From Acidocella aquatica (GTDB lineage: Bacteria; Pseudomonadota; Alphaproteobacteria; Acetobacterales; Acetobacteraceae): a DNA stretch of 64,000 nucleotides. Positions 3,863-39,836 of the stretch are shown one piece after another. Positions within the stretch are counted from its first letter, which is position 1. Every line of letters starts with the position of its first letter. The translations under genes and the position numbers were made by a program. Below the pieces are notes generated by a model that had not been told where the DNA came from, searched no databases, and saw only the letters and a program-made list of their open reading frames with translations. Where the stretch lies: positions 1 through 64,000 of the forward strand of contig NZ_BSOS01000006.1 in assembly GCF_030160635.1 (NCBI RefSeq), read 5' to 3'.

Positions 3863-4156
3863 TTAGCCGCCGATCAATACGGTGAAACAACCTAATACGA
3901 TCGAGCCGCCGTGGGCGCAGGAGTCGAGCATGCGCGCGGCGGGACGGCCGCCGATCAGGACGGTTGCGGAGCCTTTGACGATGGAATCCGGCGGGCCGAC
4001 GCAGGTGACGATATCGCCGAGGCAGGCGGCGGGGAGGCCGCCGATGAGGACGGTGGGGGCGCCCGGCGCGGTGATCGGGCCGCCGACATGCGGCACCAGG
4101 ACCGTCACCATCGGGCAGACGTGCATGTCAGTGAGGCGGGCTGCGGGAAATGCCAT
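3863..4156 (-). CDS. PAAR-domain protein, T6SS spike tip
   Basis: A 97-residue stand-alone PAAR protein built of glycine/proline-rich repeats (GGPITAPGAPTVLIGG, GSATVLIGGRPAARM, GSIVLGCFTVLIGG). These form the cone that caps VgrG. The Cys and His residues spread through it (MHVCP, CAHGG) fit the metal site at the tip. There is no toxin extension, so effectors would have to bind elsewhere. It is 14 kb from the tss operons, separated by the two-partner-secretion operon, but it is the only PAAR gene seen and probably serves this T6SS. Its start codon lies inside a perfect palindrome (4155-4169) and no Shine-Dalgarno is obvious. Confidence 0.9.
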   Translation of the reverse strand: MAFPAARLTDMHVCPMVTVLVPHVGGPITAPGAPTVLIGGLPAACLGDIVTCVGPPDSIVKGSATVLIGGRPAARMLDSCAHGGSIVLGCFTVLIGG

Positions 4157-4285: not shown

Positions 4286-6040
4286 ATGCGAGAAACGGAC
4301 GGTCTTCCTTTGCGCGTTCCTGAAGCCGTTAGACTGGCTGCTGGCGCCCTGTTGCTGATGTTGGCTGGTGCGCATAAGGCGGCGGCGCAGAGCGCTGTGC
4401 CGAGTTTTCCCCAGGCATCGCCGTTGCCGCATATCGTGCCGCAGAGCCCGCCGCAGCTGGGGGCGGGGCTGCCGAGTTTTCAGGCGCCGGCGGCGGAAGG
4501 GGCGCTGCCCAGCGCGGTGATCCAGGTCCGTTCGGTCACGATCATCGGGGCGACGGCCTTCCCGCAGGCGCGGTTGGACGGATTGACCGGCGGGCTGGCG
4601 GGGCAGAGCGTCACGTTGCAGAAAATTGCGGCGGCGCGGCGGGCGTTGCTGGATTTGTACCGCAGCCATGGATTTATCCTGACGACTGTTTCGCTCGATA
4701 TCGATGCGGCGGGCAATGTGCGGTTCATTGTCACCGAGGGGCGGATCGTGGAGGTGAAGCTCTCGCAGGATATCGGCCCGGCCGGGACGATGGTGCTGCG
4801 GTTTCTCGACCATCTGACCACGGAGCGGCCGTTGCGCGAGGCGTCACTGGAGCGGTGGTTGCTGCTGGCGCAGCAGGTGCCGGGGGTTTCAGTGCATGCG
4901 GTGCTGCAATCAGGCAGTGATGACCCGGGCGCGCTGACCCTGGTGGCGGAGGTGAGCAAGCAGAGTGTCTCCGGGGTGGTGACGGCGGATAATCGCGGCT
5001 TCAAGGCGGCGGGGCCGGTGGAAGGGCTGGCGGTGGCTGATCTGAACAGCATGACCGCGCAGGGCGACCAGACCGAGATTTCAATGTTTCATACCGACGT
5101 CGGCACCGATAATTTTGGCCAGATCGCGGAGAGTTTTTTTGTTGGTAATGATGGCCTGCGGTTGAAATTTTATGGTGGCGCCGGGCGGGCGAACCCCAAT
5201 GGCGTGCTGGGCACGGTGCATTATCAGAGTTCCATCACAGTGTTCGGCGCGATGGCGAGTTATCCGCTGATTCTGCGGCGCAATCAGGCGTTGAATCTGA
5301 TGCTGCATTTTGATGGCGTCGAGGATGCAATCAGCATAGCGGGGATTCCGACCAGTTATGACAGCCTGCGGGTGGCGCGGCTGGGGGGGCAATATGCCTG
5401 GCAGGATTTATGGGCGGGCAATGCGCGCGATGCGCTGAGTGTGCTGAACCTGCAGGTGTCGGAGGGAGTTCCGTATTTTGGCGCCTCGCCGGATGGAAGG
5501 ACAGCGCCGCCGGCCGGGCGCAGCGAGGAGAAGTTTGATTTTTGGAAGGTGGGCGGCTCGATCAGCCGGACGCAGACGTTGTTCTCGCCGTTTACCGGCG
5601 CCACGGTGGCGCTGCGCACAGAGGCGGGGGGGCAGTATGCCAGCGAAATTTTGCCCTCGGAGGAGGAGTTTTATCTCGGTGGCAACCGGTTCACCCGCGG
5701 GTTTTATTCCGGCCAGGTGGTGGGCGACAAAGCCCTGTATGCGACGGCGGAACTGCAGCTCAACACCGGGTATGATTTTTCGGTGCTCAGCCGGGACATT
5801 GACCTGGGGACGCAGTTTTATGGGTTTTATGATTGGGGTGAGACCTGGTCGAACCTGCACACCGACCTTGAACATCGGGTCAGGTCTGTGGGCGGCGGGG
5901 TGCGGATGGGGCTGACCCGGTATCTGGAGATGGACGGCGAGGTGACGGAACGCCTGACGACGCGGCTGGAGCCGGCGGCGACCAAGCTGAGGCCGTTGGC
6001 GGAGACCGTGGTCTATTGGGGTGTTACGGCCCGTTATTGA
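4286..6040 (+). CDS. TpsB/FhaC-type outer-membrane transporter of two-partner secretion
   Basis: About 584 residues. A signal peptide ends near AHKAAAQS. A linker and POTRA domains follow (from about residue 75, VRSVTIIGATAFPQARLDG, to about 235), then a 16-strand barrel. Within the barrel, GGNRFTRGFYSGQVVG carries the R-G-F motif of the L6 loop that is essential in FhaC. The protein would recognise the TPS domain of the TpsA encoded next and thread it across the outer membrane. An in-frame GTG at 4277 is an alternative start; the ATG was chosen because a GGGTGGGG stretch precedes it. It heads a plus-strand operon with TpsA, a CHAT protein and a kinase. Confidence 0.93.
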   Translation: MRETDGLPLRVPEAVRLAAGALLLMLAGAHKAAAQSAVPSFPQASPLPHIVPQSPPQLGAGLPSFQAPAAEGALPSAVIQVRSVTIIGATAFPQARLDGLTGGLAGQSVTLQKIAAARRALLDLYRSHGFILTTVSLDIDAAGNVRFIVTEGRIVEVKLSQDIGPAGTMVLRFLDHLTTERPLREASLERWLLLAQQVPGVSVHAVLQSGSDDPGALTLVAEVSKQSVSGVVTADNRGFKAAGPVEGLAVADLNSMTAQGDQTEISMFHTDVGTDNFGQIAESFFVGNDGLRLKFYGGAGRANPNGVLGTVHYQSSITVFGAMASYPLILRRNQALNLMLHFDGVEDAISIAGIPTSYDSLRVARLGGQYAWQDLWAGNARDALSVLNLQVSEGVPYFGASPDGRTAPPAGRSEEKFDFWKVGGSISRTQTLFSPFTGATVALRTEAGGQYASEILPSEEEFYLGGNRFTRGFYSGQVVGDKALYATAELQLNTGYDFSVLSRDIDLGTQFYGFYDWGETWSNLHTDLEHRVRSVGGGVRMGLTRYLEMDGEVTERLTTRLEPAATKLRPLAETVVYWGVTARY

Positions 6041-6103
6041 ATGTTGCCGTCGCCGCGGCGTTGGATATGCGCGCGATATGAAAGCGCGATGTGAGAGGGT
6101 GTG

Positions 6104-9100
6104 ATGGAACGCAAAACACAGCGGTTGGCAGGGGCTGGGGCGAACGGGCGCATTGCGCGCGCGGCTTGGCTGGCGACAACGGCGCTGACGGCGATTCTGT
6201 TTGTTCCGGGCGCATTGCGGGCACAGACGGCGCTGGCGCCCGCAACGACCCCGCAGGGCGGCGTGGTGGTGGGCGGCAGCGCCACCATTACGCAAGGCAC
6301 GGGCAGCACCACGATTGACCAGGGCAGCCAGCTTACCGCGATCAACTGGCAGAGCTTCAACGTGGGCAGCGCGGCGACGGTGCAGTTCAATCAGCCCTCC
6401 TCCAGCGCGATTGCGCTGAACCGGGTGGTGACGCCCGAGCCTTCGGTGATCGCCGGGAAGATCAACGCCAACGGGCAGATCGTGCTGGTCAATCAGTCCG
6501 GGGTGGTGTTCACCAAAGGCTCGCAGGTGAATGCGGAGAGCATTGTCGTCTCGACCTCCAACGTGGCGACCAAGGATTTCATGGCGGGGAAACTGGTGTT
6601 TTCCGGGGCGCCGAATCCGGGGGCGAAAATTATCAATGATGGGGCGTTAACCGCGCGCCAGGCGGGGCTGGTGGGGCTGGTGGCGCCGCAGGTGGCCAAT
6701 AACGGGGTGATAACGGCGCAGCTGGGCCAGGTGGTGCTGGCCGGGGCGAGTGCGTTCACGCTCGATTTGTACGGCGACCGGCTGGTCTCGCTGGATGTAA
6801 CGCAGGCGGTGCGCGCGGTGGATGTGGGCGGCAGGCTGGTGCCGGCGCTGGTGACCAACAGCGGGTTGATTCTGGCCGATGGCGGCAAGGTTACACTCAC
6901 GGCGCAGGATGCTGACGCGCTGGTGACGCAGCTGATCAACGCTGGCGGGACGATCCGCACGAATACGGTGGGGGCGAATACGGGGACGATTTCCATCCAG
7001 GGGGTGGGCGGTGATATTCAGATCGCCGGGAATCTTCTGGCGCAAGGGACGCAGGCCGGAAGCAAGGGCGGCGCGGTCGAGGTGTTGACGACAGGCACGG
7101 TGAGCGTGGCGCCGGGAGCGGTGATCAACGCCTCGGGCGATGCGGGCGGCGGCGTGGTGGCGTTGGGCACGGATTTGCAACGGGCCACGGCGGGAGCCGT
7201 GGATACAACGGCGCCGCGCGCGGCGGCGGTGGTGGTGGCGGCTGGCGCGGTGGTGAAGGCCGATGCCACGGGCAGCGGCAATGGCGGCAGGGTGACGCTG
7301 CTGAGTTCGCAGGCGACGAATTTTGCCGGGGCGATTTCGGCGCAGGGCGGGCCGCAGGGCGGCAATGGCGGAATGGTCGAGATTTCCAGCGACGGGGTGA
7401 TTTCGCTGGGCGGCACGGTGGTTGATACCGCGCTCAATGGCCAGCCCGGCGAGATATTGCTCGACCCGCAGACGCTGATCGTGAGCAGTTCGGGAACCAG
7501 CAGCGGGCAGACGACTTATATCGATCCGGCTTCGCTGGTAAGCCTGGCCGGCTCCATCGTGCTGAGCGCGAACAAGCTGGTGGATGTGGCGAGCGCGGTC
7601 AACCTGACCGGGGCCTCGGTTCTGACGTTGAGTTCGGGCGGCGATGTGACCATCGGTGCGTCAATTGATACGGTTGGTTCCTTGGAGATCGATGCGGCTG
7701 GGACGCTGTTGGTGGGGGCGGGGCTGACGGCCGGAAGCATTGCGTTGCTGGATCCTGGCGCCAAGACCTTGATTGATATCGGTGCGCCGGTTGTGGGGAC
7801 GGCGCTGGTGGCGTTGGAGAGCGGCGGCGGGATCAGTGAAACCACCGGAGGCGTTATCGCTACGGCTTCGCTGGTGAGCGGCGCGGCGAATAGCGGTAAC
7901 GATATGCTGGGCGGGGCGAACAGTGTGACCTCGCTGGGCGTGTTCACCTTGGGCGGCGCCGGGACGCTGACCTTTGCCGATACCGGATCGCTGAATGTGG
8001 CGGGCACGGTGAGCGCGGCAGATATGATTCTGGAGAGCAGCGGCGCGGTGAGCGAAGTCGCGGGTGGCACGCTGAACGTCGGCAGGCTGGGCAGCGGCGG
8101 CACGACGATTGGCGGGGCGGTGTCGCTGGGAAATGGCAATAATATCGGCACGCTGGGGGCGTTCGCGGCGGCGGGGGATATTCTGCTGGCTGACAGCACC
8201 GCGCTGGATATTGCCGGTGTGGTGCAAACGCCGGGGTTGTTGACGCTGCAGGATGGCGGGGCGGTGAGCGAAGCGAGTGGCGGCACGCTGAACGTGGGGA
8301 CGCTGAGCAGCGGCGGCACGGCGATTGGCGGGGCGGTGTCGCTGGGCAATGGCAATAATATCGGCACGCTGGGGGCGTTCGCGGCGGCGGGGAATATCCT
8401 GCTGGCGGACAGCACCGCGCTGAATATTGCCGGTGTGGTGCAAACGCCGGGGCAACTCAAGCTGCAGGATGGCGGGACGGTGAGCGAGATCACTGGCGGC
8501 ACGCTGAACGTGGGCACGCTGAGCGGCGTTGGGACTTTTGGCGGCGATGTGTTGCTGACCAATGGTAACAGCATCGGCACGCTGGGGAATATGACGCTGA
8601 GCGGCACGCATGTTCTGGCCGTGAGCGATGCCGGGTCTCTGAATGTGGCGGGCACGGTAGTTGCGCCGGCCGCGACTCTGAGCGCCGGAACGCTGGTTTT
8701 GGCGGGGCCGGTGTTGGTGACCAACGGCTTGGCGCTGGAGGCGGGCAGCGGCGGCATCAGCGAGGCAGCGGGCGGTACGCTGAATACCGGCACGCTGAGC
8801 AGCGGCGGCACGACGATTGGCGGTGCGGTGTCGCTGGGCAATGGCAATAATATCGGCACGCTGGGGGCGTTCGCGGCGGCGGGGAATATTCTGCTGGCGG
8901 ACAGCACCGCGCTGAATATTGCCGGTGTGGTGCAAACGCCGGGGCAACTCAAGCTGCAGGATGGCGGGACGGTGAGCGAGATCACTGGCGGCACGCTGAA
9001 CGTGGGCACGCTGAGCGGCGTTGGAATTTTTGGCGGCGATGTGTTGCTGACCAATGGCAACAGTATCGGCACGCTGGGGAATATGACGCTGAGCGGTACG

Positions 9101-12100
9101 CATGTTCTGGCCGTGAGCGATGCCGGGTCTCTGAATGTGGCGGGCACGGTGGTTGCGCCGGGCGCGACTCTGAGCGCCGGAACGCTGGTTTTGGCGGGGC
9201 CTGTCTCGGTGACCAACGGGCTGGCGCTGGAGGCGGGCAGCGGCGGCATCAGCGAAGTCGCAGGCGGCGCGTTGAATACCGGCACGCTGAGCAGCGGCGG
9301 CACGACGATTGGCGGTGCGGTGTCGCTGGGCAACAGCAACAATATCGGCACGCTGGGCGCATTTGCGGCGCTGGGGAATATTCTGCTGGCTGATAGCGGC
9401 GCGCTGGATATTGCCGGTGTGGTGCAAACGCCGGGGTTGTTGACGCTGCAGGATGGCGGGGCGGTGAGCGAGATCACCGGCGGCACGCTGAATGTGGGGA
9501 CGTTGGGCAGCGGCGGCACGACGATTGGCGGCGATGTGTTGCTGACCAATGGAAACAGCATCGGCACGCTGGGCAATCTGCTCGCGGCGGGGAATTTGGT
9601 CCTGGACAATGCGGGAAGTTTGACGGTGGCGGGGCCGGTGCAGGCCAATGCGGTGACGCTGGTTGATAACGGTACGGTGACGCTGGGCGGGTTGTTGCGG
9701 GCGACGGGCGGGCAGGTGGCGCTGGTGGCTGACGGGCTGCTTGAAGCGACGGGCGGCGCGGTGAGCGTGGGCAGCGGCGGGACCATTGATATCGCGCCCT
9801 ATATCGCCGGTGGGGTGGTTGATGTGGGTGGCACGGCGGCGGGCGGGCTGGAACTCTCCAGCCTGCTGTTAAGTGGGCTGGACCCGGCCGGGACGCTTGT
9901 CATCGGCAGCGCGGGCAGTTTTGGCGCGGGAAGTATCTACACTGAAGGGCTGCTGATTCTCTCCAACCCGGCGCTCGTGCTGGATGCCGCCGGGCCGATT
10001 ACCCAGACCGGGATTTTGATCGGCAAAGTGATTGATATGAGCGGGAGCAGCCTGGCGCTGGATGGCGGGCTGGAGGCGAACACGCTGAATCTGGCGAGCG
10101 GCGGTAATATTACTCAGCCCAGCACGGGTGAGTTGTATGTCGGCACGTTGAGCAGCGGCGGGACGACGATTGGCGGCGATGTGGCGCTGAACGGATCGCT
10201 GAATTTGGTGTTTACGCTGGGCGGTTTTGCGGATGCGGGGAATTTCAACCTTGTTGACGCCGCGGCGCTGGTGGTGGACGGGCCGGTGACCGCCCGCAAT
10301 ATTGCGTTGAGCGATGGTTCGACCAGTGCCAGCAGCCTGGCGATTAACGGTACGCTGGCGGTGGGTTCAGGCGGCACGATCAGCCTCGCCGCGAATTCCA
10401 TCACCTCCAGCGGCGCCAGCCTTGTGGCGCCCGGGGGAACCGTGGCGATTGCGCCTTACACCAGTGGCACGGCGATTGATCTGGGCGGCACGGCGGCGGG
10501 GTTGGACCTGAGCGGGGCGCTGCTGGGCGCGGTCAGCGGTTCGACATCGCTGGTGGATATCAGCACCACGGGCAGCATTGCCGCCGATGGCGCGGTGAGC
10601 GTGGCGGCGGGCGCGTTGTTGTTGAGCGGCAATGGCGTGACGTTTAATGGCACGCTGGCGGTTCCGGGGGCGCTGGAGCTGGCGAGCACGAACGGGGTGA
10701 CCACCTCCTCCGGGGAGTCGCTGAGCGTTGGCACATTGCTGGCGGGCGGTGCGATCAGCGGGCCGGTGAATATGGCGCTGGGCAATAATGTGATCGGGAC
10801 GCTGGGGGCTTTTTCGCTCTCGGGGGGCGATCTGGCACTGAGCAGCCAGACGCCATTGCTGGTGAACGGGGCCCTGAGCGCGGGCAATATCACCTTGAAT
10901 GCTGCTGGGCTGACGCTGGCCAGTGTTGTCAACGCCGCCTCGGCGGTGACGCTGAACAGCGGGGCCGGGGTGGTCGAGACCGGCGGCGGCGCGATTGACG
11001 CGCCAAGCCTGACCACCGGGGGCGCCACGATTACTGGCGCCGCGCTGCTGGGCGGGGCCAATACCATTGGCACTTTGGGCGGGTTCATGGCCAGCGGGGA
11101 TGTGCTGGTGAACGATGCCAGGGCATTGAGCGTGGCCGGGAGTGTGGCGGGGGCGGATATCACGCTTGATGCGGCCGGGCTGACCTTTGCAGGTGACGTT
11201 ACCACGCCCGGCCTGTTGGCTTTGGCGAGTAGCAGCGGGGTTACGCAGAGCGCCGGTACGATCAGCGCCGCGACGCTGAGCAGCAATGGGGGGACGATTG
11301 CCGGGGGCGTGGATATGGCCTTGGCTGGGAATGCGTTGCGCACGATCGCCGGGTTTGCCGCGAGCGGCGATGTGAGGCTGGTTGACACTGGCCCGCTAAG
11401 TGTGACCGGGCCGTTCAGCGCCGCGAATATCGCGCTCTCGGCGGCCGGTATTGCGGTGGATGGCGGGATTTCAACCGGATTGTTGCAGCTTGCGAGCAGC
11501 GCCGGGGTGAGTGAGGGCGCGGGTGGCCAGGTGAGGGCGGCGACGCTGAGTAGCGGTGGCACGACGATCGCGGGCGATGCCGTGTTGAATACAGCGGGCA
11601 ATCTGGTCAACACGCTGGGTGCTTTCGCCGCCACTGGCGGGTTGACCCTGAACAACGCCACGGACCTGACGTTAGCGGGGCCGGTGAGCCTGGGGGGGAC
11701 GCTGGCGCTGCTCGATACGGGCAATATCACGCAGACGGGCGGCGCGATTACGGCGGCGGCGCTGACCAGCGATGGCGGCACCATCGGCGGCAATGCGCTG
11801 TTTGGCGGGGCGGGCAATGCGATACCCGTGCTTGGCGCGTTCGCGGCGGGGGGCAATGTGCTGCTCAACGATACCGGGGCGATGACGCTTGAGGGGAATA
11901 TAAATGCCGGGAACATGCTCAGCCTGGATGCGGGCGGGGCCATCACGCAGGGCAGCGGCATTGTTTCCGCCGCGTTGCTGAATGCGGCTGCTGCGTCGCT
12001 GACGCTGCCGGATGCGAACCTGATTGGCGCGCTGGGCAGTGTGACGGCCAGCGGTGATATCAGCGCGGCGGGCGTTGGCGGCATCGCCGGGCCGGTGAGC

Positions 12101-13129
12101 GCGAATAACGCGACACTCTCCACCACGGGGAATTTCACGGAAACCGGCAATGCGCAGATCGCGAACGCGCTGTATGTGACCGCCGGGGGGAGTGTGATCC
12201 AGAGCGCGGGCAGCGTGAGCGCGCAGACCGCCACGCTTTCGGCCGGCGGGAGCATGAGCCTGTCTGGCACGACGGCGATAGCCAATGAGGTGGATTTGAT
12301 CGCGGCCAACAGCATTACGCATGCGGCGGGCGCACTGAGCGCGGCGACGCTGGTGGGCTCGGCTGGGACCCTGGCTTCATTCGGCGCGTATACGAATATC
12401 GGCACGCTGGGCAGCTTTATCATGCATGACAGCCTGTTCGCGCTGGCAAATGCCGGGGCGTTGACGATTGTGGGGCCGGTTGTCGCCAATACCGTGACGA
12501 TCACGGCGCAAGGGCCGATCACCCTGGCGGGGAGCGCCACGGGCGGGTTGTTCATAACGGGGACCATTGCCTCGAGCACGGCAACGGCGCCATCGCCGCT
12601 TGACTCGGTGATAAGCTCGAACGGAAGTGCGGCATCGATTTTGCAGACGGGAACCTTCCTGGTTAATTCAGGGCCGAATGCGCTGACCTACCTGAACAAT
12701 GCGAGCCAGCCAGCCACGCTCTTTCTCTATACGCAGCCCAGCGGGACCATGAATTTCGCGGCGAATACCGGCGGGAGCCTGTATGCGCCGAGTTTGGATC
12801 TGGTGTTGGCGGCGGGGGCGGCCGGTGTGGTGACGGGCAATGTCAATCTTCAGCATCTCGAGGTTTTGAGCGCGCTCTCGGTTAATCTGAATGGGACGAT
12901 CGCCGGTATTCCAGGGCCGACGGCGGCGGGCGGCGGCACGGCCTTTCCGTTCCCGCAGCCGGGTTACCGGTTTAATACGTGCCCGATCGGTTCGGTGAAT
13001 TGTACGATTTTGCCGATCGAGATGCTGCCCGAGGGCAATCCGCTGGAGAATTTTGATATCTCGCCGCGCAAGCGCAAGCGGCTTGACCATGGTGTCCAGC
13101 TTCCCGGCATTGCGACACGCGATTTTTGA
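6104..13129 (+). CDS. TpsA exoprotein, filamentous-haemagglutinin type
   Basis: A 2341-residue secreted protein. A long signal peptide ends at about residue 41 (GALRAQT). The TPS/haemagglutination-activity domain follows (about 42-300), with the usual INWQSFNVGS and NANGQIVLVNQSGVVF motifs. The rest is a glycine/serine/alanine-rich beta-helix of degenerate repeats, including near-identical 72- and 92-residue modules at 8090-9505. The C-terminus (CPIGSVNC, then a basic RKRKR patch, ending in DF) looks like that of other alphaproteobacterial TPS proteins and carries no toxin domain, so an adhesin or matrix protein is more likely than a contact-dependent inhibitor. It is 63 bases downstream of tpsB. 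An ATG preceded by GAGAGG was preferred over a GTG one codon earlier. Confidence 0.93.
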   Translation: MERKTQRLAGAGANGRIARAAWLATTALTAILFVPGALRAQTALAPATTPQGGVVVGGSATITQGTGSTTIDQGSQLTAINWQSFNVGSAATVQFNQPSSSAIALNRVVTPEPSVIAGKINANGQIVLVNQSGVVFTKGSQVNAESIVVSTSNVATKDFMAGKLVFSGAPNPGAKIINDGALTARQAGLVGLVAPQVANNGVITAQLGQVVLAGASAFTLDLYGDRLVSLDVTQAVRAVDVGGRLVPALVTNSGLILADGGKVTLTAQDADALVTQLINAGGTIRTNTVGANTGTISIQGVGGDIQIAGNLLAQGTQAGSKGGAVEVLTTGTVSVAPGAVINASGDAGGGVVALGTDLQRATAGAVDTTAPRAAAVVVAAGAVVKADATGSGNGGRVTLLSSQATNFAGAISAQGGPQGGNGGMVEISSDGVISLGGTVVDTALNGQPGEILLDPQTLIVSSSGTSSGQTTYIDPASLVSLAGSIVLSANKLVDVASAVNLTGASVLTLSSGGDVTIGASIDTVGSLEIDAAGTLLVGAGLTAGSIALLDPGAKTLIDIGAPVVGTALVALESGGGISETTGGVIATASLVSGAANSGNDMLGGANSVTSLGVFTLGGAGTLTFADTGSLNVAGTVSAADMILESSGAVSEVAGGTLNVGRLGSGGTTIGGAVSLGNGNNIGTLGAFAAAGDILLADSTALDIAGVVQTPGLLTLQDGGAVSEASGGTLNVGTLSSGGTAIGGAVSLGNGNNIGTLGAFAAAGNILLADSTALNIAGVVQTPGQLKLQDGGTVSEITGGTLNVGTLSGVGTFGGDVLLTNGNSIGTLGNMTLSGTHVLAVSDAGSLNVAGTVVAPAATLSAGTLVLAGPVLVTNGLALEAGSGGISEAAGGTLNTGTLSSGGTTIGGAVSLGNGNNIGTLGAFAAAGNILLADSTALNIAGVVQTPGQLKLQDGGTVSEITGGTLNVGTLSGVGIFGGDVLLTNGNSIGTLGNMTLSGTHVLAVSDAGSLNVAGTVVAPGATLSAGTLVLAGPVSVTNGLALEAGSGGISEVAGGALNTGTLSSGGTTIGGAVSLGNSNNIGTLGAFAALGNILLADSGALDIAGVVQTPGLLTLQDGGAVSEITGGTLNVGTLGSGGTTIGGDVLLTNGNSIGTLGNLLAAGNLVLDNAGSLTVAGPVQANAVTLVDNGTVTLGGLLRATGGQVALVADGLLEATGGAVSVGSGGTIDIAPYIAGGVVDVGGTAAGGLELSSLLLSGLDPAGTLVIGSAGSFGAGSIYTEGLLILSNPALVLDAAGPITQTGILIGKVIDMSGSSLALDGGLEANTLNLASGGNITQPSTGELYVGTLSSGGTTIGGDVALNGSLNLVFTLGGFADAGNFNLVDAAALVVDGPVTARNIALSDGSTSASSLAINGTLAVGSGGTISLAANSITSSGASLVAPGGTVAIAPYTSGTAIDLGGTAAGLDLSGALLGAVSGSTSLVDISTTGSIAADGAVSVAAGALLLSGNGVTFNGTLAVPGALELASTNGVTTSSGESLSVGTLLAGGAISGPVNMALGNNVIGTLGAFSLSGGDLALSSQTPLLVNGALSAGNITLNAAGLTLASVVNAASAVTLNSGAGVVETGGGAIDAPSLTTGGATITGAALLGGANTIGTLGGFMASGDVLVNDARALSVAGSVAGADITLDAAGLTFAGDVTTPGLLALASSSGVTQSAGTISAATLSSNGGTIAGGVDMALAGNALRTIAGFAASGDVRLVDTGPLSVTGPFSAANIALSAAGIAVDGGISTGLLQLASSAGVSEGAGGQVRAATLSSGGTTIAGDAVLNTAGNLVNTLGAFAATGGLTLNNATDLTLAGPVSLGGTLALLDTGNITQTGGAITAAALTSDGGTIGGNALFGGAGNAIPVLGAFAAGGNVLLNDTGAMTLEGNINAGNMLSLDAGGAITQGSGIVSAALLNAAAASLTLPDANLIGALGSVTASGDISAAGVGGIAGPVSANNATLSTTGNFTETGNAQIANALYVTAGGSVIQSAGSVSAQTATLSAGGSMSLSGTTAIANEVDLIAANSITHAAGALSAATLVGSAGTLASFGAYTNIGTLGSFIMHDSLFALANAGALTIVGPVVANTVTITAQGPITLAGSATGGLFITGTIASSTATAPSPLDSVISSNGSAASILQTGTFLVNSGPNALTYLNNASQPATLFLYTQPSGTMNFAANTGGSLYAPSLDLVLAAGAAGVVTGNVNLQHLEVLSALSVNLNGTIAGIPGPTAAGGGTAFPFPQPGYRFNTCPIGSVNCTILPIEMLPEGNPLENFDISPRKRKRLDHGVQLPGIATRDF
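8090..9505 (+). repeat. tandem modular repeats inside tpsA
   Basis: Two in-frame modules alternate: A (216 bp) and B (276 bp). The order is A 8090-8305, A 8306-8521, B 8522-8797, A 8798-9013, B 9014-9289, A 9290-9505. The A+B unit of 492 bp (164 codons) is repeated with few differences, and long stretches are identical. Landmarks are SSGGTTIGGAVSLGNGNNIG in A and GGDVLLTNGNSIGTLGN in B. A degenerate B-like segment follows at about 9530. Such repeats can expand or contract by recombination without breaking the reading frame. Confidence 0.9.
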
Positions 13130-13142
13130 AGGCAGGCAGCAG

Positions 13143-16100
13143 ATGACCGGTAAGCGGGTGAAATTGGTCAAGGCCGGGTTGGCAATGATGATGGGGCTGG
13201 CCCTGGCAAGTTGCGCCAGGCCGCCGGTGTCGGCCTATGATAATCCGGGCGGTGGCGCGAGTGCGGCTGCCAGCCTGCCGGTTGGGCAGAATACCGCGGG
13301 GGAGAGTTGCACGATCCAGCGCAGCGGCGATAGCGCCGATGTTTATTGCGGATCATGGGACCAGCCGAGCGCGCATGTGCGCAATGGCGGCCCGGCGGCG
13401 GCGGGGGATTTGGCGGCGCTGGCTGCGACCAGCACATGGCGGGCCTCACTGGAGGGCAGCTATGCCTGCAATGCGCCCACGCCGGCGACGATTTTGGATG
13501 GCGTGCCTGCCGAGGTGCTGGCCTGTACACAGCGTTTTGGCGGGTGGCCGCATGTGGCGGTGGCGAGCGTGATTAACGGCAATGTGTATTATGCCGATGG
13601 CGTGTTGCCAGCGCTGCCGCCGATGCAGCGGGCGATGGGCGTGATGAGCGGCAAGATCGCGGCGAGCGAGGCCGGGCAGGCAACGGTGGCGGCGTCTGAC
13701 CAGATATTGGCGCAGCGGCTGGCGGCGCAGGCGTTCAGCTCCGGCGATATCGGCCATTACGAGGCGCTGATGGCGCTGGGGACCAAGGCCAACCAGGCGG
13801 AGGATTTCCCCGCCGCGGTGATTGCGTATCGTGCCGCGCTGGCGTTGCAGCAGAAGAAAATCGGCGCGGATAATCCGGGCACGGTGGCGCCGATGCTGGA
13901 ACTGGCGCTGAACCTTTCGGACCAGGCGCAATATCCGCAGGCGGCGAATATGTTTGCGGCGGTGGCGAAGCTGGCGCCGCGGGCGAGTGACCCGACCGCG
14001 CAGGCGAGGCTGTTGCATTATGAGGGGCTGGACCAGTTGAACCAGAACCACCCGGCGCAGGCGCTGGATTTGCTGCGTCAGGCGGAGGCGCTCTACGCGG
14101 CGCTGCTGCCGCCGGAGTTGTTGCAGGCGCAGCCTGCGGCAAAGACCAATGAAGCGTTGTTCAGCGTGAGCGCGCAGCCAGGCATAAGTGGCCTGCTGGC
14201 GGAGCAGGCGACGTTGAATACCCCGGTGATGCAAAGCGCGCTGCTGGGGGTGATTGAAACGTGGCGTTATCAGGCCATCGCGCTTGATGCCAGCGGCGAC
14301 AAGGCCGGGAGCGCCAAGGCGATGGCGACGGCGAACCGGATTGCGCTGGCCAATGATATCGCGCCGCCGATGCTGAGCGGGAGACTGAACCGGACCAGCG
14401 CAACGCTGGCGGTGGCGCAGGGGCAGACCGGCAGCGCGGTGGATTATCTGCAGGGGGCGGCAACGGATTTTGCAACCGCGATACCGGGCTCGCGGCCGGT
14501 GGCGGAGACGGCGCTGTTGCAGGCCGCGGCGTTGCATGACGGGAAAGATGACAAGGCGGCGCTGGCGGCCTGCCGCAGCGGTATTAGCCTGTTGACGAAG
14601 TTGCAGCTCGGAACCTCGGCGAGGCTGATCACGCCGTGCCTGGATGTGTTCGCGGCGGTGGCGGCTGGGGATCAGCCGGATGCGCAGGCGCTTTACGGCG
14701 AGATGTTTGCCGCCGCCGAGCTGGCGCAGGGCAGTGTGACGGCGCAGGAAATTGCCGAGGCGGCGGCACGGCTTTCGACGAGTTCGTCCGACCCGAAAGT
14801 GGCGTCGGCGATCCGCGCGCAGCAGGATGCGCAGGCGGCTCTGGTGAGCCTGTATCAGCAGCGCGACGAGTTGGCACACACGACGGGGGCGGGCGCCACG
14901 GCGGCTTTGACCGCGCTGGACAAGAAAATCGCCGGGGCCAATGTGGATTTGCAGCAGGCGACGCTGGCGGAACAGGCGGCGGCGCCGAATTTCGGGCAGT
15001 TGGTGCAGCAGGTGGTGCCGGCCAAGGCGGTGTTGGCCTTGTTGCGGCCTGATGAGGCGTTTTTGGGAATTACGGCGGGGCCGGACCATAGCTGGCTGTT
15101 TTTTCTGCATGACGGCGCGATGCGGGTGGCACGCAGCCAGACCAATGATTTCAGCATGGCCACGCTGGTTTCCGCCGTGCGCGACAGTATCGAGCCGACG
15201 CAGGCGGGGCTGCCGGCGTTTGATATGGCGGATGCGGCGGCGATCTATCAAGCGACGGTGGGGCCGTTCGCGGATGATATGAAGAATGTGCATGAGTTGG
15301 TGGTCGCACCCTCCGGCCCGCTGCTGGCGCTGCCGTTCGCATTATTGCCCACCGGGCCGGCTAGCGCCACTGACCTGGAGAACGCGCCCTGGCTGGTCCG
15401 CGAGACCACGCTGGCTTATGTGCCGGCCGCGGCGAATTTCGTTTCATTGAGGAAAGTGGCGGGAACTTCGGCGGCGGCGAAGCCATGGTTCGGGTTTGGC
15501 GATTTCAGGCCGGTGACGCTGGCGCAGGCGCAGGGGACGTATAACGTGGCGGCTTGCCAGGATAGCGCGGCGCTGTTCGCGAATTTGCCGAATTTGCCGT
15601 ACGCGAAGCTCGAGCTGCAGGCGGCGGGCGCGATTTTTGGCGCCGGGCCGGGCGATGAGCTGTTGGGTACGAATTTTACGGTGCCGAATGTGGAAAAGGC
15701 GGACCTGAAGAATTTCAGAATTCTGCATTTTGCCACGCATGCGCTGCTGCCGACGGATCTGCCGTGCCAGAGCCAGCCCGCGATTGTGACATCGGCGCCG
15801 CCGGGTGCGGCCACGGCGGATGATGCGCTGCTGACCACCAGCGATGTGACGGGGCTGCATCTGGATGCCGATCTGGTGCTGCTCTCGGCCTGCAACACCG
15901 GGGGCGGAACGAATGGCGGCGAGGCGCTCTCGGGCCTGGCGCGCAGCTTCTTCTACGCAGGCGCGCGGGCGATGATGGTGACGCAATGGTCGGTGAACGA
16001 CCAGGTGTCGGCGTATCTGGTGGCTGACACGTTGAGCCGGATTCATGCGGGGGCGGATGGCGGCGTGGCGGGCAGTGTGCGGGCGGCACAGCTGGCGTTG

Positions 16101-16241
16101 ATCGCCGGGGCGGGGAAGGGGTTTCCGGCGGAGATCGCGGACCCGTTTTATTGGGCGGCGTTTTCGGTGATCGGCGACGGCGGCAATGCCGCCGATTTGC
16201 GGGAGTCGGCTCTATCCGGTTCGCCACAGACCGGACTATAA
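13143..16241 (+). CDS. TPR-CHAT protease-like lipoprotein
   Basis: About 1032 residues. The ATG at 13143 gives a lipoprotein signal with lipobox LALASC (Cys24), so the protein is probably anchored in the envelope. An in-frame start at 13053 would bury that signal. A Cys-containing N-terminal region (about 25-190) leads into TPR-like helical repeats (about 200-600), a helical linker, and a C-terminal CHAT domain (about 740-1025). The CHAT His-Cys dyad is present: HFATHALL (His866) and LLSACNTGGG (Cys917), followed by SGLARSFFYAGARAMMVTQW. CHAT domains are caspase/separase-like cysteine peptidases. The gene starts 13 bases after tpsA and ends 6 bases before the kinase, so it may process or sense the TpsA protein. 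That role is inference. Confidence 0.88.
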   Translation: MTGKRVKLVKAGLAMMMGLALASCARPPVSAYDNPGGGASAAASLPVGQNTAGESCTIQRSGDSADVYCGSWDQPSAHVRNGGPAAAGDLAALAATSTWRASLEGSYACNAPTPATILDGVPAEVLACTQRFGGWPHVAVASVINGNVYYADGVLPALPPMQRAMGVMSGKIAASEAGQATVAASDQILAQRLAAQAFSSGDIGHYEALMALGTKANQAEDFPAAVIAYRAALALQQKKIGADNPGTVAPMLELALNLSDQAQYPQAANMFAAVAKLAPRASDPTAQARLLHYEGLDQLNQNHPAQALDLLRQAEALYAALLPPELLQAQPAAKTNEALFSVSAQPGISGLLAEQATLNTPVMQSALLGVIETWRYQAIALDASGDKAGSAKAMATANRIALANDIAPPMLSGRLNRTSATLAVAQGQTGSAVDYLQGAATDFATAIPGSRPVAETALLQAAALHDGKDDKAALAACRSGISLLTKLQLGTSARLITPCLDVFAAVAAGDQPDAQALYGEMFAAAELAQGSVTAQEIAEAAARLSTSSSDPKVASAIRAQQDAQAALVSLYQQRDELAHTTGAGATAALTALDKKIAGANVDLQQATLAEQAAAPNFGQLVQQVVPAKAVLALLRPDEAFLGITAGPDHSWLFFLHDGAMRVARSQTNDFSMATLVSAVRDSIEPTQAGLPAFDMADAAAIYQATVGPFADDMKNVHELVVAPSGPLLALPFALLPTGPASATDLENAPWLVRETTLAYVPAAANFVSLRKVAGTSAAAKPWFGFGDFRPVTLAQAQGTYNVAACQDSAALFANLPNLPYAKLELQAAGAIFGAGPGDELLGTNFTVPNVEKADLKNFRILHFATHALLPTDLPCQSQPAIVTSAPPGAATADDALLTTSDVTGLHLDADLVLLSACNTGGGTNGGEALSGLARSFFYAGARAMMVTQWSVNDQVSAYLVADTLSRIHAGADGGVAGSVRAAQLALIAGAGKGFPAEIADPFYWAAFSVIGDGGNAADLRESALSGSPQTGL

Positions 16242-16247
16242 GCGTTT

Positions 16248-18056
16248 ATGGCCGATATGCTTGGAAAATATGAACTGCGGCAGGTGCTTGGCAAAGGCGC
16301 CATGGGCACGGTGTATGAGGGGTTTGATCCGGTTATTGCCCGGCGGGTGGCGATCAAGACCGTGCGGCTGCCCGACCCTGAGGATGTGGAAGCGCAGGAG
16401 GAGCTGGCGCGCTTCAAGCGTGAGGCGCAGGCCGCCGGGCGGTTGACGCATCCCAATATCGTCGGCGTGTTCGATTACGGCGAGACGCCGGAAATCGCCT
16501 ATATCGTGATGGAGTTTGTTGACGGCACGACGCTGAAACATGTCGTGGATAAAAAAGAGCGCTTCGAGCTGGCCGAGATCGTGCGGATCATGGAAGCGTT
16601 GATGGCCGGGCTGCAGTTCAGCCATGACCGCGGCGTTGTACACCGCGATATCAAGCCCGCGAATGTGATGTTGACGAAGGCGGGCGAGGTGAAGATCGCC
16701 GATTTCGGGATTGCGCGGATCGAGAGCAGCAGCATGACGCAGGCGGGCACCATGCTGGGGACACCCTCGTATATGTCGCCCGAACAGTTCATGGGCCAGA
16801 CAGTGGATTCGCGCACCGATATCTATTCCTCCGGCGTGATGCTTTATCAGCTGCTGACCGGAGAAAAACCGTTCGAGGGCGGGCTGACGGCGATTATGCA
16901 CAAGGTGCTCAATACCGAGCCGCCGCCGCCCTCGGCGTTATCGGTCACCGTGCCGCATGCGTTTGATGCGGTGGTGAAAAAGGCGATGGCGAAACGGCCG
17001 GAAGACCGTTTTGCCACCGCGAATGATTTTGCCAGGGCGTTGCGCGAGGCGTTCGAGGCCAAGGCGGCGGTGGAGGCCGGGGGGTTTGGCCTGGGGATTG
17101 CGGATTTTGGCGATGGCGAGGCCACGATGGTCGCGCCCAGCCGCCCGGCGGCGCAGGTGGCGGCACCCGCCAGGGCGATGCCGCAGCAGACCGCCGCGCC
17201 CCAGAAAAAAGGCGGTAATCTGGCGTTGATCGGCGGCGGCGCGGCGGTGGCCGTGGCGCTGTTGGGCGGCGGGGCGTATTTTTTGTTGGGCGGGCACAAC
17301 GCAAGCCGGCCGGCGCAGACCACGGCGGCGCCGGCTAGCGCGCCTGCCGCGCAACCCGCTGCTCCGCCAATGACGCAGGCGCAGCGTGAAGCGGCGTTCA
17401 CCTCGATATTGGGCTCGCTGCCGTGTACCCTGCTGAATGGCAACGATAGCGGCGCGGCGCCGGAGATCTCCGGCCTGGCCGGGGCGGGAGCGCCGCAGGC
17501 GGCGTTGAATGGGGCTGTGCAATCCTTGCCGGATGCGGGGATGCTGACCAATGACACGCAGACCATCGACGGGCCCTATTGCGATGCGCTGAACGCCATT
17601 CGCCCCTATCATCCGCTGTATGCGGGAGTGGGGGCGGTGTTGGGCCTCAGTCTGGCAGGCGGCAAGACCACGCTGCATGACGGCGATCTGATTACCGTGG
17701 CGGAGAAGATGCCGGGTTATGCCGGGTATTTGGAAACCGATTATTTCTCCAGCGACGGCAGCGTGCTGCATTTGTATCCGACGCCGACGGATGCTCAGAC
17801 GGTGCTGGCGGCAGGGTCTGCGAAGACGCTGGGGGACCCGAGCCATGGCGGGGCGAGCTGGCAGGTGAGTGCGCCTTATGGCACGGATATGATCATCTCC
17901 ATTGCCTCATCGGTGCCGCTGTTCACGAAGTTGCGGCCGCAGGATGAAAATGCCAGCGATTATCTGCCTGCATTGCGAGCCGCATTGCAGAATGCGGCGT
18001 CATCGGGGGCGAAAGTGGCGGTGGCCGCGTTGCCGGTTGTGACGCTGCCGAAATAG
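16248..18056 (+). CDS. transmembrane Ser/Thr protein kinase (PpkA-like)
   Basis: 602 residues. The kinase domain (about 8-275) has a glycine loop GKGAMGTV, Lys37 in VAIKT, HRDIKPANV (Asp134) and DFG (Asp152), so it should be active. A juxtamembrane stretch contains DGEATMVAP (Thr293). A single membrane helix (about 325-348) is followed by a periplasmic domain of about 250 residues that resembles the DUF4384-type domain of other alphaproteobacterial kinases. T6SS loci usually have a kinase (PpkA), a PP2C phosphatase and an FHA protein; the last two are at 33544 and 41674, and this is the only kinase in the window. Yet it is translationally close (6 bases) to the CHAT gene and belongs to the two-partner-secretion operon. 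It converges on the T6SS operon with a 26-base gap. Confidence 0.92.
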   Translation: MADMLGKYELRQVLGKGAMGTVYEGFDPVIARRVAIKTVRLPDPEDVEAQEELARFKREAQAAGRLTHPNIVGVFDYGETPEIAYIVMEFVDGTTLKHVVDKKERFELAEIVRIMEALMAGLQFSHDRGVVHRDIKPANVMLTKAGEVKIADFGIARIESSSMTQAGTMLGTPSYMSPEQFMGQTVDSRTDIYSSGVMLYQLLTGEKPFEGGLTAIMHKVLNTEPPPPSALSVTVPHAFDAVVKKAMAKRPEDRFATANDFARALREAFEAKAAVEAGGFGLGIADFGDGEATMVAPSRPAAQVAAPARAMPQQTAAPQKKGGNLALIGGGAAVAVALLGGGAYFLLGGHNASRPAQTTAAPASAPAAQPAAPPMTQAQREAAFTSILGSLPCTLLNGNDSGAAPEISGLAGAGAPQAALNGAVQSLPDAGMLTNDTQTIDGPYCDALNAIRPYHPLYAGVGAVLGLSLAGGKTTLHDGDLITVAEKMPGYAGYLETDYFSSDGSVLHLYPTPTDAQTVLAAGSAKTLGDPSHGGASWQVSAPYGTDMIISIASSVPLFTKLRPQDENASDYLPALRAALQNAASSGAKVAVAALPVVTLPK

Positions 18057-18082: not shown

Positions 18083-19090
18083 TCAGTTGGCGGCGAGACA
18101 GGCGGTTGCGGCCGCGGTTGACGGCAGGGGGGCGTTGGCCATCGGGGTTAGCCAGAAATTGGGCATCCCGGCGATATAGCCCGCGCGCAGCTGGCCGATC
18201 TCCGCTTGCGTCATGCCGACGGCATCAGCGTTAAAAAAGCGCGGATCCCTGGTGAAGATCAGGTAGGCCTGGGTTTCGTTCAGCATCAGCATGGTGTTGT
18301 TTGTGTCGTAGCCCTGGCGGCCGAGGAAGCTTGTGAAGGCGTCGCGGTCGGCTGCTGTCAGGCTGTACCAGAAGGACACCGCATATTGGCGGTAGGCGGG
18401 ATTTGTGTAGAAAGCGCCGTGCGAGATTTCGTGGTGCAGGATGACCGCGCGCATCTCCGGCGTTACCGCGCCGCCGGCCGCGGGCAGTGTGATGATCGCC
18501 CCGTTGGCGCCGGGTTTTAACCAGCCGAGTTGGGTGAGCAGGGTTTTGAGCCAACGCTCCTGCGGGTTGAGCCGGATGTTTTCCTGGGCCGCGAGCTGGA
18601 AGAATTCCGCGAGGTCGGCGGCTGGATAGTCATGGCCGTAGTAGTAACTCTCGACGGTATCGCCGTGGCTGGCGATGGCTGTGCGCAAGGCGGTATCATC
18701 AAGGAGCCGGTCGCGCGGGAGGCCGGCTTTTTCGGTTAGCGCGGCGACGCGGTCGAGCGCCAGGCCCTGGGTGAGCAGGCTTGGGAAGTCGATGACCACG
18801 ATGGCGTGGTCGGGCGCGAAGTAGGAGACCTGGATGTGGCACGGCTGGGTAGCGTCGATCTGCGCTTCGGTTTCAATGTCGATGGGGATGGCGGCGGGGC
18901 GGCTGAGGATGGCCCAGGCGGCGCCGATTGTCAGCAGCGACAAAACGGCGGCGCCAGCCATGAAAAGTCTCGCGCGGCGCGGGTTGTGCCGGGGCCGGGG
19001 GCCACCGGACGTTACGTGCTGAACCGTAACACCCCGGACCATGACGATGGTGTCATCGTCATGGGTTCCGGGTTTGCTCACTTCACGCAA
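18083..19090 (-). CDS. membrane-anchored zincin-like HExxH protein
   Basis: 335 residues, family not recognised. A cytoplasmic N-terminus of about 40 residues, with the acidic motif HDDDTIVMVRG (Thr14), precedes one membrane helix (about 42-62) and a periplasmic domain. That domain carries HHEISHG (His220, Glu221, His224) and, 48 residues on, NETQAYLIF (Glu272), a plausible third zinc ligand. It looks like a gluzincin-type metallopeptidase, though activity is inferred. It is the last gene of the tssA-to-tssG operon, 8 bases after the OmpA gene. A peptidoglycan or protein-processing role in assembling or exporting the T6SS is possible. The Thr motif resembles that of TssL. Confidence 0.72.
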   Translation of the reverse strand: MREVSKPGTHDDDTIVMVRGVTVQHVTSGGPRPRHNPRRARLFMAGAAVLSLLTIGAAWAILSRPAAIPIDIETEAQIDATQPCHIQVSYFAPDHAIVVIDFPSLLTQGLALDRVAALTEKAGLPRDRLLDDTALRTAIASHGDTVESYYYGHDYPAADLAEFFQLAAQENIRLNPQERWLKTLLTQLGWLKPGANGAIITLPAAGGAVTPEMRAVILHHEISHGAFYTNPAYRQYAVSFWYSLTAADRDAFTSFLGRQGYDTNNTMLMLNETQAYLIFTRDPRFFNADAVGMTQAEIGQLRAGYIAGMPNFWLTPMANAPLPSTAAATACLAAN

Positions 19091-19098
19091 CGATCAGT

Positions 19099-19740
19099 CT
19101 ATTGGCCGAGATTGATGATCTGGACGCGCCGGTTGCGCTGGTCGGGCGTGTTGGGCGGGGTGGGAACCAGGAGGTCGGACTCGCCGACGCCTTCGCTCTG
19201 CAGCCGGGTATCGGCTACCCCGAATTTGGTTTCGAGATAGGATTTCACCGCGGCGGCGCGCTGCTCGGAGAGGGTCTGGTTGGTGGCGGCATCGCCGGTG
19301 GTGTCGGTATGGCCGACGATTTTGAAGTTATAGGCGGCCAGATCGGCGCTGGTCAGCGCCTTGCCGAGCTGGTCGAGCGCGGCGGTGGCCTCGGGGGTCA
19401 GGCTGGCTGACCCGGAGCCGAACTGAATGTCCAGATTGGTGGAGGGGGCCGTAGCCGTGGCGGCTTGCGTGGGGGTGGCGGGCGTGGCGGCGGGGGCCAT
19501 GCTCATGTTGCTCATCGAGCTCGCGGCGGGGGTGACGGGCATGGCCGGTGCCACGGTGCCGCTGGGGCCGGGAGGCAGGGGCTTGATGCCGCGGGTGGTG
19601 TCGCTCAGCATGCCGCTTGGCTTCAACTGGTTGATGATCTGCTGGGCGGAGGGGTTGGTCTGCGCGGACGCGGCGCCGCAGAGGGCGGTTGTGGCGAGCA
19701 GGGCGCCCGCCAGGGCCGCGCGGAAGGATGGATTTCGCAT
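19099..19740 (-). CDS. OmpA-family peptidoglycan-binding protein
   Basis: 213 residues. A signal peptide (to about residue 26, AASAQT), a proline/alanine/methionine-rich linker (about 50-95) and a C-terminal OmpA domain (about 97-210). The domain has FKIVGHTDTTGDAATNQTLS and LSEQRAAAVKSYL, the residues that contact diaminopimelate in peptidoglycan. It is 84 bases downstream of tssG and 8 bases upstream of the HExxH gene. TssL here already has an OmpA domain of its own, so this would be a second cell-wall anchor for the T6SS or a separate envelope protein. Confidence 0.85.
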   Translation of the reverse strand: MRNPSFRAALAGALLATTALCGAASAQTNPSAQQIINQLKPSGMLSDTTRGIKPLPPGPSGTVAPAMPVTPAASSMSNMSMAPAATPATPTQAATATAPSTNLDIQFGSGSASLTPEATAALDQLGKALTSADLAAYNFKIVGHTDTTGDAATNQTLSEQRAAAVKSYLETKFGVADTRLQSEGVGESDLLVPTPPNTPDQRNRRVQIINLGQ

Positions 19741-20868: not shown

Positions 20869-20881
20869 GGGCGGGGCCTGG

Positions 20882-23243: not shown

Positions 23244-23274
23244 GGGGTTGCGGTGTTATGGTGGGGGAACGGGT

Positions 23275-24081: not shown

Positions 24082-24124
24082 GTTCGATGTCCTATTCCTG
24101 CAATGACGCGTTGGGTTATGAAGC

Positions 24125-25798: not shown

Positions 25799-25851
25799 GC
25801 TCTCTCCATCCTGACCGCGCGCCCCGCCGGGACGCGCGGCTGGGAGCGGAT

Positions 25852-27345: not shown

Positions 27346-27348
27346 GGT

Positions 27349-27858: not shown

Positions 27859-28007
27859 TTTTTGTCTCCTGAAAAGGCTTACAGTCAATTTAACGTAGGA
27901 AATATCCGGCGGTGCGGTCAGGGCAACGGCCATCAGGCCAAAGCGATTATTCCCCTAAAACGCCGCCGGGTTTCCCGGTCGAACAGGCGCGCTGACAATT
28001 TGCCAGG

Positions 28008-31994: not shown

Positions 31995-32028
31995 ACATTT
32001 TCACTTAAAACCACGAGGAGTCTAAATT

Positions 32029-32552: not shown

Positions 32553-32611
32553 CTCGTGTTTCATCAACCTGATCGTAAGATTGAAGCCGATTAAAGCAAA
32601 GGGGTGTCGTG

Positions 32612-34836: not shown

Positions 34837-34837
34837 C

Positions 34838-38377: not shown

Positions 38378-38385
38378 GGGTTCGC

Positions 38386-39792: not shown

Positions 39793-39836
39793 CGTCTTAC
39801 AATCCTCGTCGATGCACGCGTTTACGTTTTAAAAGC

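Follow-up and report, generated by a model that had tools for sequence, protein, structure and literature searches.

A two-partner secretion and CHAT lipoprotein operon inside a type VI secretion locus of Acidocella aquatica: a candidate input to threonine phosphorylation

When and where type VI secretion systems (T6SSs) fire is an open question in the field. Pseudomonas, Serratia, Agrobacterium and Acidovorax have a T6SS threonine-phosphorylation pathway (TPP) made up of the kinase PpkA, the phosphatase PppA and the FHA-domain protein Fha, and in Agrobacterium tumefaciens Fha is reported to bind TssL phosphorylated in the sequence DLPpTVVEI (PMC3953482). The inputs to PpkA vary by lineage, with TagQRST, RtkS (PMC6082577) and TssW (PMC12607579) each described as acting with PpkA ectodomains; RtkS was found as a periplasmic protein whose gene is linked to TPP genes, and was later shown to bind the PpkA ectodomain (PMC6082577). 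Here, we analyse the first 64,000 nucleotides (forward strand) of contig NZ_BSOS01000006.1 of the alphaproteobacterium Acidocella aquatica (RefSeq assembly GCF_030160635.1), referred to below as the window. Genes for the two-partner secretion (TPS) proteins TpsB and TpsA, a CHAT-domain lipoprotein and a Ser/Thr kinase follow one another there within a T6SS locus, and we tentatively propose, as a reading that falls somewhat short of probable, that the TpsA-CHAT operon feeds the TPP as an input module specific to this lineage.

Several TPS exoproteins are handled at their C-terminal ends. In HMW1 and HxuA a C-terminal disulfide knob locks the end of the protein in the TpsB pore, leaving that end in the periplasm, and LapG cleaves another TPS adhesin, CdrA, in its periplasmic tail (both PMC5422565). 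The C-terminal part of the Bordetella TpsA protein FhaB is processed by surface and periplasmic proteases – SphB1, CtpA and DegP (PMC8263021) – and SphB1 is encoded away from the fhaB-fhaC locus (PMC5422565).

In the window, tpsB, tpsA, the CHAT gene and the kinase gene lie on a single strand with intergenic gaps of 63, 13 and 6 bases (Table 1), so that the gene coordinates bear out the layout given in the original prediction, an earlier reading of this DNA. That prediction placed the operon beside the T6SS; it lies instead within the T6SS locus, because a PAAR gene diverges from tpsB upstream and the genes for an HExxH protein, an OmpA-domain protein and TssG converge on the kinase gene downstream. 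The PAAR, HExxH and OmpA-domain genes had escaped that prediction; the latter two are part of the same conserved block as the operon. With an N-terminal TPS domain in TpsA, and POTRA and a ShlB-type barrel in the adjacent TpsB, the pair has the features of two-partner (type Vb) secretion. In 11 of 13 Acidocella loci, the window's among them, the CHAT and kinase genes are 6 bases apart; the spacing is 7 bases in genome G004 and 16 in G037 (G, L, C and f with a number are our handles for genomes, loci, contigs and families). A contig of Acidocella facilis ATCC 35904 (L040, L089) shows the same layout, with the end of tpsA, CHAT, the kinase, HExxH and OmpA genes and T6SS genes. PAAR occupies the same position in all three other Acidocella genomes with DNA 5′ of tpsB (G032, G012 and G004). 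A search for sigma-70-like promoters between positions 3600 and 19800 gave none on the + strand and two matches, both on the - strand, where 3.6 are expected by chance, and internal promoters are possible either way; promoter and terminator scans together gave matches no more often than chance.

The kinase is very probably the TPP kinase of this T6SS. Its VAIK, HRD and DFG motifs are present by eye, and the part following a hydrophobic segment, which includes a DUF4384 domain, would form a periplasmic ectodomain. As in the described TPP systems, this Hanks-type kinase with a predicted C-terminal ectodomain is encoded in the same T6SS locus as a PP2C phosphatase, TagF and an FHA-domain protein, TagH, in which the GR..SxxH..NGT residues are likewise present by eye. 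In genome G019, which lacks tpsB-tpsA-CHAT at this place, its gene neighbours PAAR-VgrG-TagH. Moreover, TssL has an acidic-Thr-(I/V) site near residue 15, comparable to Thr14 in the DLPpTVVEI of A. tumefaciens TssL (PMC3953482). The locus departs from those systems in having DUF4384 in the ectodomain, in the genes for a TPS fibre and a CHAT lipoprotein that precede the kinase gene, and in new candidate substrates, the HExxH protein and TssC2. The suggestion that this is the only kinase available to the T6SS was too strong, there being one more Pkinase match in the genome, on contig C47. With different lineages using different PpkA inputs, a further one is not implausible, and the logic by which RtkS was discovered applies to this locus as well. 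Among cyanobacterial orthocaspases DUF4384 turns up repeatedly as an accessory domain (23 of the 316 tabulated in PMC8283722). On a Nitrospirales contig (L140, 11606-14320) the two genes after CHAT both encode DUF4384 proteins, the first of them a trypsin-DUF4384 protein.

The association of CHAT with the kinase extends well beyond the window. Across 200 evenly drawn Acetobacteraceae genomes (cut-offs of E <= 1e-60 for CHAT, E <= 1e-75 for the kinase and E <= 1e-10 for the TPS domain), CHAT was found in 83, the kinase in 86, TssG in 96 and the TPS domain in 106. CHAT and kinase occur together in 74 genomes, CHAT only in 9, kinase only in 12 and neither in 105; for CHAT and TssG the corresponding numbers are 67, 16, 29 and 88, and for kinase and TssG 71, 15, 25 and 89, all of these counts being uncorrected for shared ancestry, which lessens their weight for the proposed coupling. 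A set of 100 relatives gave CHAT in 38, the kinase (at E <= 1e-60) in 31 and TssG in 36. CHAT is directly followed by the kinase in 51 of the 102 CHAT matches, representing 51 of the 83 CHAT-bearing genomes. In 22 of these 51, TssG is no more than 40 kb away on the contig that carries the tandem; in 18 of the 22, which span 9 genera, it lies downstream at up to 10.5 kb and points towards the tandem, whereas in G226 it is upstream. Absence of the gene set from related genomes, which the original prediction had named as telling against itself, is thus not what was found. Its view that this is not a described system also stands, in that no publication on the four-gene set was found, judged from listings, nor any paper joining CHAT with TPS. 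As to coupling with the T6SS, the four-gene set and its T6SS linkage are conserved across genera, but a fixed coupling is not supported, as set out below.

Features of TpsA suggest how such an input might begin. The only cysteines among the 2341 residues of the window TpsA are a pair located 48 and 41 residues from its C-terminus, and the protein terminates in a motif of a form common in the family (Table 1). We compared TpsA tails at 99 Acetobacteraceae CHAT loci, 8 CHAT loci outside the family having been set aside and 12 without a TpsA-like frame (several of them beginning at a contig end) being excluded. Among the remaining 87 tails, 79 have C-x6-C within the last 90 residues, starting at a median of 49 residues from the end, 71 have the end motif (such as LPGIATRDF, LPNVSDEDY or LPDVSSRDY), and every one has at least one of the two. 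Neither feature is present in any of 17 control tails, taken from 20 Acetobacteraceae TpsA genes hand-picked on contigs without a CHAT match, 3 of which ran off their contigs. TpsA frames were selected for a low R+H+C+W fraction, a criterion that works against frames rich in cysteine, and the comparison is descriptive, because the pattern was drawn up with the data already in view. The position of the cysteine pair is like that of the HMW1/HxuA-type anchor, and the pair is expected to form a disulfide knob in the periplasm that keeps TpsA in TpsB; on this basis TpsA is likely to be tethered with a periplasmic tail. It differs from HMW1 and HxuA in the C-x6-C spacing at 48 and 41 residues from the end, in the conserved extreme C-terminus and in having a gene for a protease-like lipoprotein next to it. 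CHAT-linked TpsA tails outside the Acetobacteraceae are of a second type, 7 of 10 bearing a GN(E/P)-type motif close to the C-terminus; a TpsA-like frame lies directly 5′ of CHAT in L108, L118, L137, L147, L149, L150, L154 and L157, from sphingomonads, a Phenylobacterium and others. The window genome has two more TPS-domain genes away from CHAT, at C3:55490-56227 and C6:138819-139574, and the former has neither C-x6-C nor the tail motif.

The CHAT protein agrees with the earlier description of a predicted lipoprotein with an intact His-Cys dyad: it has a lipobox, LASC, with Cys 24, and a caspase-like CHAT domain (PF12770) with H866 and C917, so that peptidase activity is predicted; a TPR_12 match is below the Pfam cut-off. 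Of 98 open frames from 88 Acetobacteraceae genomes, counting that of the window, all 98 have H866 and C917, and 96 have C24, with gaps at this position in the other two. Because the lipobox is conserved and the cysteines are invariant, the protein is predicted to be exported, and once lipid-anchored it would face the periplasmic tail of TpsA. Given the likeness of that tail to the periplasmic anchor of HMW1 and HxuA, it could be a target of CHAT, and we think it rather more probable that CHAT acts on it than that it does not. The arrangement is like that of CdrA and LapG, in which a protease of the periplasm cuts the tail that a TPS adhesin leaves there, tail and cutting being predicted here; it differs in that a CHAT domain replaces LapG, a lipobox is present and the gene is linked to that of a Ser/Thr kinase. 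LapG is a cysteine protease. No LapG-family match was found in the CHAT protein, for which Pfam gives CHAT and the sub-threshold TPR, and the rest of the genome was not searched for LapG. The proposed processing also parallels that of the C-terminal part of FhaB by SphB1, CtpA and DegP, although the protease families differ and the CHAT domain is the sole peptidase-like Pfam match in the four operon proteins.

On the cytoplasmic side, candidate phosphorylation sites would link the kinase to the T6SS and to the HExxH protein. The N-terminus of TssL has an acidic-Thr-(I/V) site (SDRTIIRP) in all 4 readable N-termini, and that of TssC2 (DPDATIIRV) in 9 of 11, one of the other two being cut and one lacking the motif in the stretch read (both counts include the window). 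The kinase has a similar Thr site, GEATMVAP, adjoining its hydrophobic segment, and the short N-terminus of the HExxH protein, predicted to be cytoplasmic, reads HDDDTIVMVRG. The latter is predicted to be a membrane-anchored metallopeptidase, with one clear hydrophobic segment and an HExxH motif that, like a downstream glutamate (NExxA), is invariant in 10 aligned sequences. It had no Pfam match, to a known metallopeptidase family or otherwise, and its best PDB sequence match, at E 0.18, is an unrelated molecule; every other part of the locus is of a known kind.

The threonine site of the HExxH protein largely follows the T6SS. We tabulated it in 49 genomes carrying this protein, leaving out loci L087-L166, several of which are contigs already in the table. 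It is present in 37 of the 42 genomes with TssG (39 counting two variants, G132 and G135, that retain a Thr) and in 1 of the 7 without TssG; in one further TssG-bearing exception, G043, the N-terminus is cut. Three of the omitted loci that are not clearly in the table (L092, L093 and L104) have the motif. In G110 the site is gone while the neighbouring linker is kept, by comparison with G195 and G246 of the same genus. The Acidocella genomes without a T6SS (G009, G017, G027 and G031) seem by similarity to form one group and possibly reflect a single loss event. Together with G052 and G110, which belong to other genera, this suggests three separate losses of the motif. These relatives, lacking both the T6SS and the threonine, amount to natural experiments.

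The HExxH protein is found in 6 of 385 genomes at the level of the class: the window's own, one of family f3 and four of family f42. In f42, genome G274 has HExxH, tpsB, tpsA and CHAT genes in one row; G400 and G572 have HExxH-tpsB-tpsA, with the DNA ending before a possible CHAT; and G496 has TssF-TssG-kinase-HExxH-tpsB-tpsA on one strand. Parts of the operon are thus together again in f42 in another order, and the phosphosite is not carried over.

From the gene order, conservation, residues and presence or absence of motifs, which are observed directly, we infer the topology, tethering, CHAT action, kinase signalling and phosphorylation in the following scheme. TpsB would export TpsA, which its C-terminal disulfide knob would tether to the outer membrane as a long fibre on the cell surface, with the cysteine pair implying that the last 40-50 residues stay in the periplasm. 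CHAT, as a lipid-anchored caspase-like cysteine protease, might recognise or cut this tail in response to the fibre being engaged or pulled, and the DUF4384 ectodomain of the kinase, the PpkA of the locus, could then read the state of CHAT or TpsA; whether TpsA and CHAT signal to the kinase at all is a finely balanced matter, and we place it just on the doubtful side. The predicted targets of its cytoplasmic domain are the juxtamembrane motif of the kinase itself and the N-terminal acidic-Thr motifs of TssL, TssC2 and the HExxH protein. Binding of the phosphothreonines by TagH would promote assembly, with PP2C reversing it, and if the membrane-anchored HExxH protein were recruited too, the site of firing would gain a periplasmic peptidase.

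The points that weigh against this proposal concern mainly genomes in which its components are apart. The tandem is present without TssG anywhere in 8 of the 51 tandem genomes, and VipB is also absent from all 14 TssG-less genomes rechecked; because both are missing, CHAT-kinase presumably serves something else there. TPS-CHAT pairs occur without this kinase in the stretches examined of L046, L050, L052 and L053, and without kinase or T6SS genes in those of sphingomonads, Caulobacterales and Niveispirillum, so that these other Alphaproteobacteria do not support the original idea of TPS-CHAT, kinase and T6SS as one set. Conversely, in G132, G179, G250, G163 and G175 the kinase and TssG are 3.7-6.1 kb apart on contigs that have no CHAT. 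The flanking PAAR gene is 5′ of tpsB in none of 6 loci from other Acetobacteraceae genera. The threonine site is missing in G006 and G039 though TssG is on another contig (in G006, a T6SS), it is present in G022, yet TssG and VipB were not found there (the contig ends beside OmpA), and L095 has an HExxH protein without it. In f42, the kinase ectodomain of G496 is different and contains repeats, and no Thr motif could be seen ahead of the hydrophobic segment in the HExxH proteins of G274, G400, G572 and G496, the last being T6SS-adjacent with an unclear start. Since many genomes keep TPS-CHAT or CHAT-kinase where no T6SS was found, the T6SS can be just one output of the module.

Much of this is what would be expected if two independent systems merely shared a promoter or neighbourhood, with TPS-CHAT an adhesin having its own retention or shedding protease, the kinase a T6SS PpkA, and the tandem only co-regulating attachment and the T6SS. 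Both the TPS-CHAT pairs lacking a nearby kinase and the kinases near TssG on CHAT-less contigs speak for it, as does G019: there, TssG-OmpA-HExxH and the kinase form one flank and PAAR-VgrG-TagH-TssK-TssL-TssM the other, the kinase and PAAR genes diverge with no tpsB-tpsA-CHAT between them, and a CHAT gene cut by the contig end is found beside Hcp/ClpV. It remains a strong rival, though on balance a doubtful one, since it does not sit easily with a tandem that has a convergent TssG in 9 genera, with the 6-base gap in 11 of 13 Acidocella loci, with retention of the tandem in 8 genomes without TssG, or with the CHAT gene followed by two DUF4384 genes in Nitrospirales. Because the linkages to the T6SS phosphorylation switch and to the TPS-CHAT module overlap on the kinase, we favour a kinase shared by both.

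The signal could also run the other way, the kinase, with PP2C, sensing stress through DUF4384 and deciding, by way of the HExxH protein and CHAT, between retention and shedding of TpsA, in the manner of LapG and CdrA (PMC5422565), with the T6SS as an optional second output. CHAT, kinase, HExxH and OmpA are indeed kept together in the Acidocella genomes G017, G031 and G009 and in G052, in which TssG and VipB were not found, and the HExxH gene heads tpsB-tpsA(-CHAT) in f42, with no kinase or T6SS gene in the DNA examined of three of the four genomes (G274, G400 and G572). Where the T6SS is gone, however, the HExxH protein is usually without the Thr motif, the presumed route of the kinase, and we regard this direction as unlikely. 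CHAT proteins act in other bacterial immunity systems. This, and the position in a T6SS locus, might point to a weapon or defence role for TpsA and CHAT, either CDI-like toxin delivery or a caspase-type suicide protein, lying in the T6SS island by chance; we consider it very improbable. Contact-dependent inhibition (CdiA/CdiB/CdiI) was rejected: Pfam and NCBIfam scans gave no toxin domain in TpsA, its tail is conserved rather than polymorphic, and the next gene is CHAT, in place of a variable toxin end followed by an immunity gene. A defence-system assignment was rejected as well, because PADLOC, run on six proteins, matched only the kinase (by generic kinase models) and, weakly, the OmpA domain, with no match for TpsB, TpsA or CHAT; the conserved CHAT lipobox and invariant cysteines further point to export.

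Under the proposal that TpsA-CHAT feeds the TPP, the locus would add a two-partner fibre and a caspase-like lipoprotein as a new candidate to the PpkA inputs in the literature considered (TagQRST, RtkS and TssW), and the fibre may help to tell the cell when to fire its T6SS. A bacterial CHAT protein gains a plausible substrate in the TpsA tail, and the HExxH protein constitutes an unnamed family linked to both TPS and T6SS. Candidate residues can be pinpointed: the tail cysteines, the tail end, C917 of CHAT and the predicted phosphothreonines on three T6SS-locus proteins. A bolder and improbable version is a contact-gated trigger, in which tethered TpsA is the probe and its tail the fuse: once the fibre binds or is pulled, CHAT would cut or capture the tail, the change would travel via DUF4384 into the kinase, phosphothreonines would be placed on TssL, TssC2 and the HExxH protein, and TagH would collect the sheath, the membrane complex and an enzyme that cuts wall or tail where contact was made; if true, this would be a relay from a surface adhesin to the T6SS with a caspase-like protease in the middle. 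The combination of TPS, CHAT, kinase and T6SS was not found in print in the literature searched, the parts being mostly of known kinds.

Table 1. Features of the operon and the surrounding T6SS locus (window positions; E values of domain-profile matches)
Feature	Position	Strand	Description
PAAR	3863-4156	-	Spike-tip protein, 97 aa, divergent from tpsB; PF05488 E 2e-25
tpsB	4286-6040	+	TPS outer-membrane transporter; ShlB 1.7e-16, POTRA_2 8.1e-10
tpsA	6104-13129	+	Exoprotein, 2341 aa; N-terminal TPS domain 8.8e-31
TpsA C-x6-C pair	12980-13003	+	Near C-terminus; candidate disulfide anchor
TpsA extreme C-terminus	13100-13126	+	LPGIATRDF; common family form (L/I/V)P(N/D/G)(V/I)(A/S)xx(D/E)(Y/F)
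CHAT	13143-16241	+	Predicted TPR-CHAT caspase-like lipoprotein; CHAT 4.7e-46
CHAT Cys 24	13212-13214	+	Lipobox LASC
CHAT H866	15738-15740	+	HFATH
CHAT C917	15891-15893	+	LLSACNTG
Kinase	16248-18056	+	Hanks-type Ser/Thr, PpkA-like; Pkinase 1.2e-53, DUF4384 8.3e-8
Kinase domain	16269-17015	+	
Kinase juxtamembrane Thr	17124-17126	+	GEATMVAP
Kinase DUF4384	17682-17918	+	
HExxH protein	18083-19090	-	Predicted membrane-anchored metallopeptidase
HExxH motif	18419-18433	-	HEISH
HExxH-protein Thr	19049-19051	-	Thr of DDDTIVM
OmpA-domain protein	19099-19740	-	Exported; OmpA 2.8e-20; adjoins HExxH gene in many relatives
TssG, TssF, TssE, ImpE, TssC2, TssC, TssB, TssA	19825-29165	-	T6SS genes
TssC2	24125-26080	-	Second TssC-like sheath protein; true start probably 25798; N-terminal DPDATIIRV
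ClpV, Hcp	29352-32514	+	T6SS genes
Small protein	32609-33274	+	Peptidase_M91 match (PF14891, 4.2e-9)
PP2C phosphatase	33544-34263	-	PppA-like counterpart of kinase; PP2C_2 2.1e-13
TagF, TssM, TssL, TssK	34270-41168	-	T6SS genes
TssL Thr	39748-39750	-	N-terminal SDRTIIRP
TagH	41674-43587	-	FHA-domain protein, putative phosphothreonine reader; VI_FHA 5.4e-91, FHA 1.1e-15
VgrG	43809-45752	-	Phage_GPD 1.5e-74

Genome G052 (L049, L052 and L053) has three TpsA-CHAT pairs, only one of which is followed by the kinase, and TssG and VipB were not found in it. In G028 the kinase is directly beside PP2C, with no match to CHAT, TssG or VipB. Within the window, the small protein encoded after Hcp in a stretch of lower GC looks, from its peptidase match, like the product of a T6SS cargo gene.

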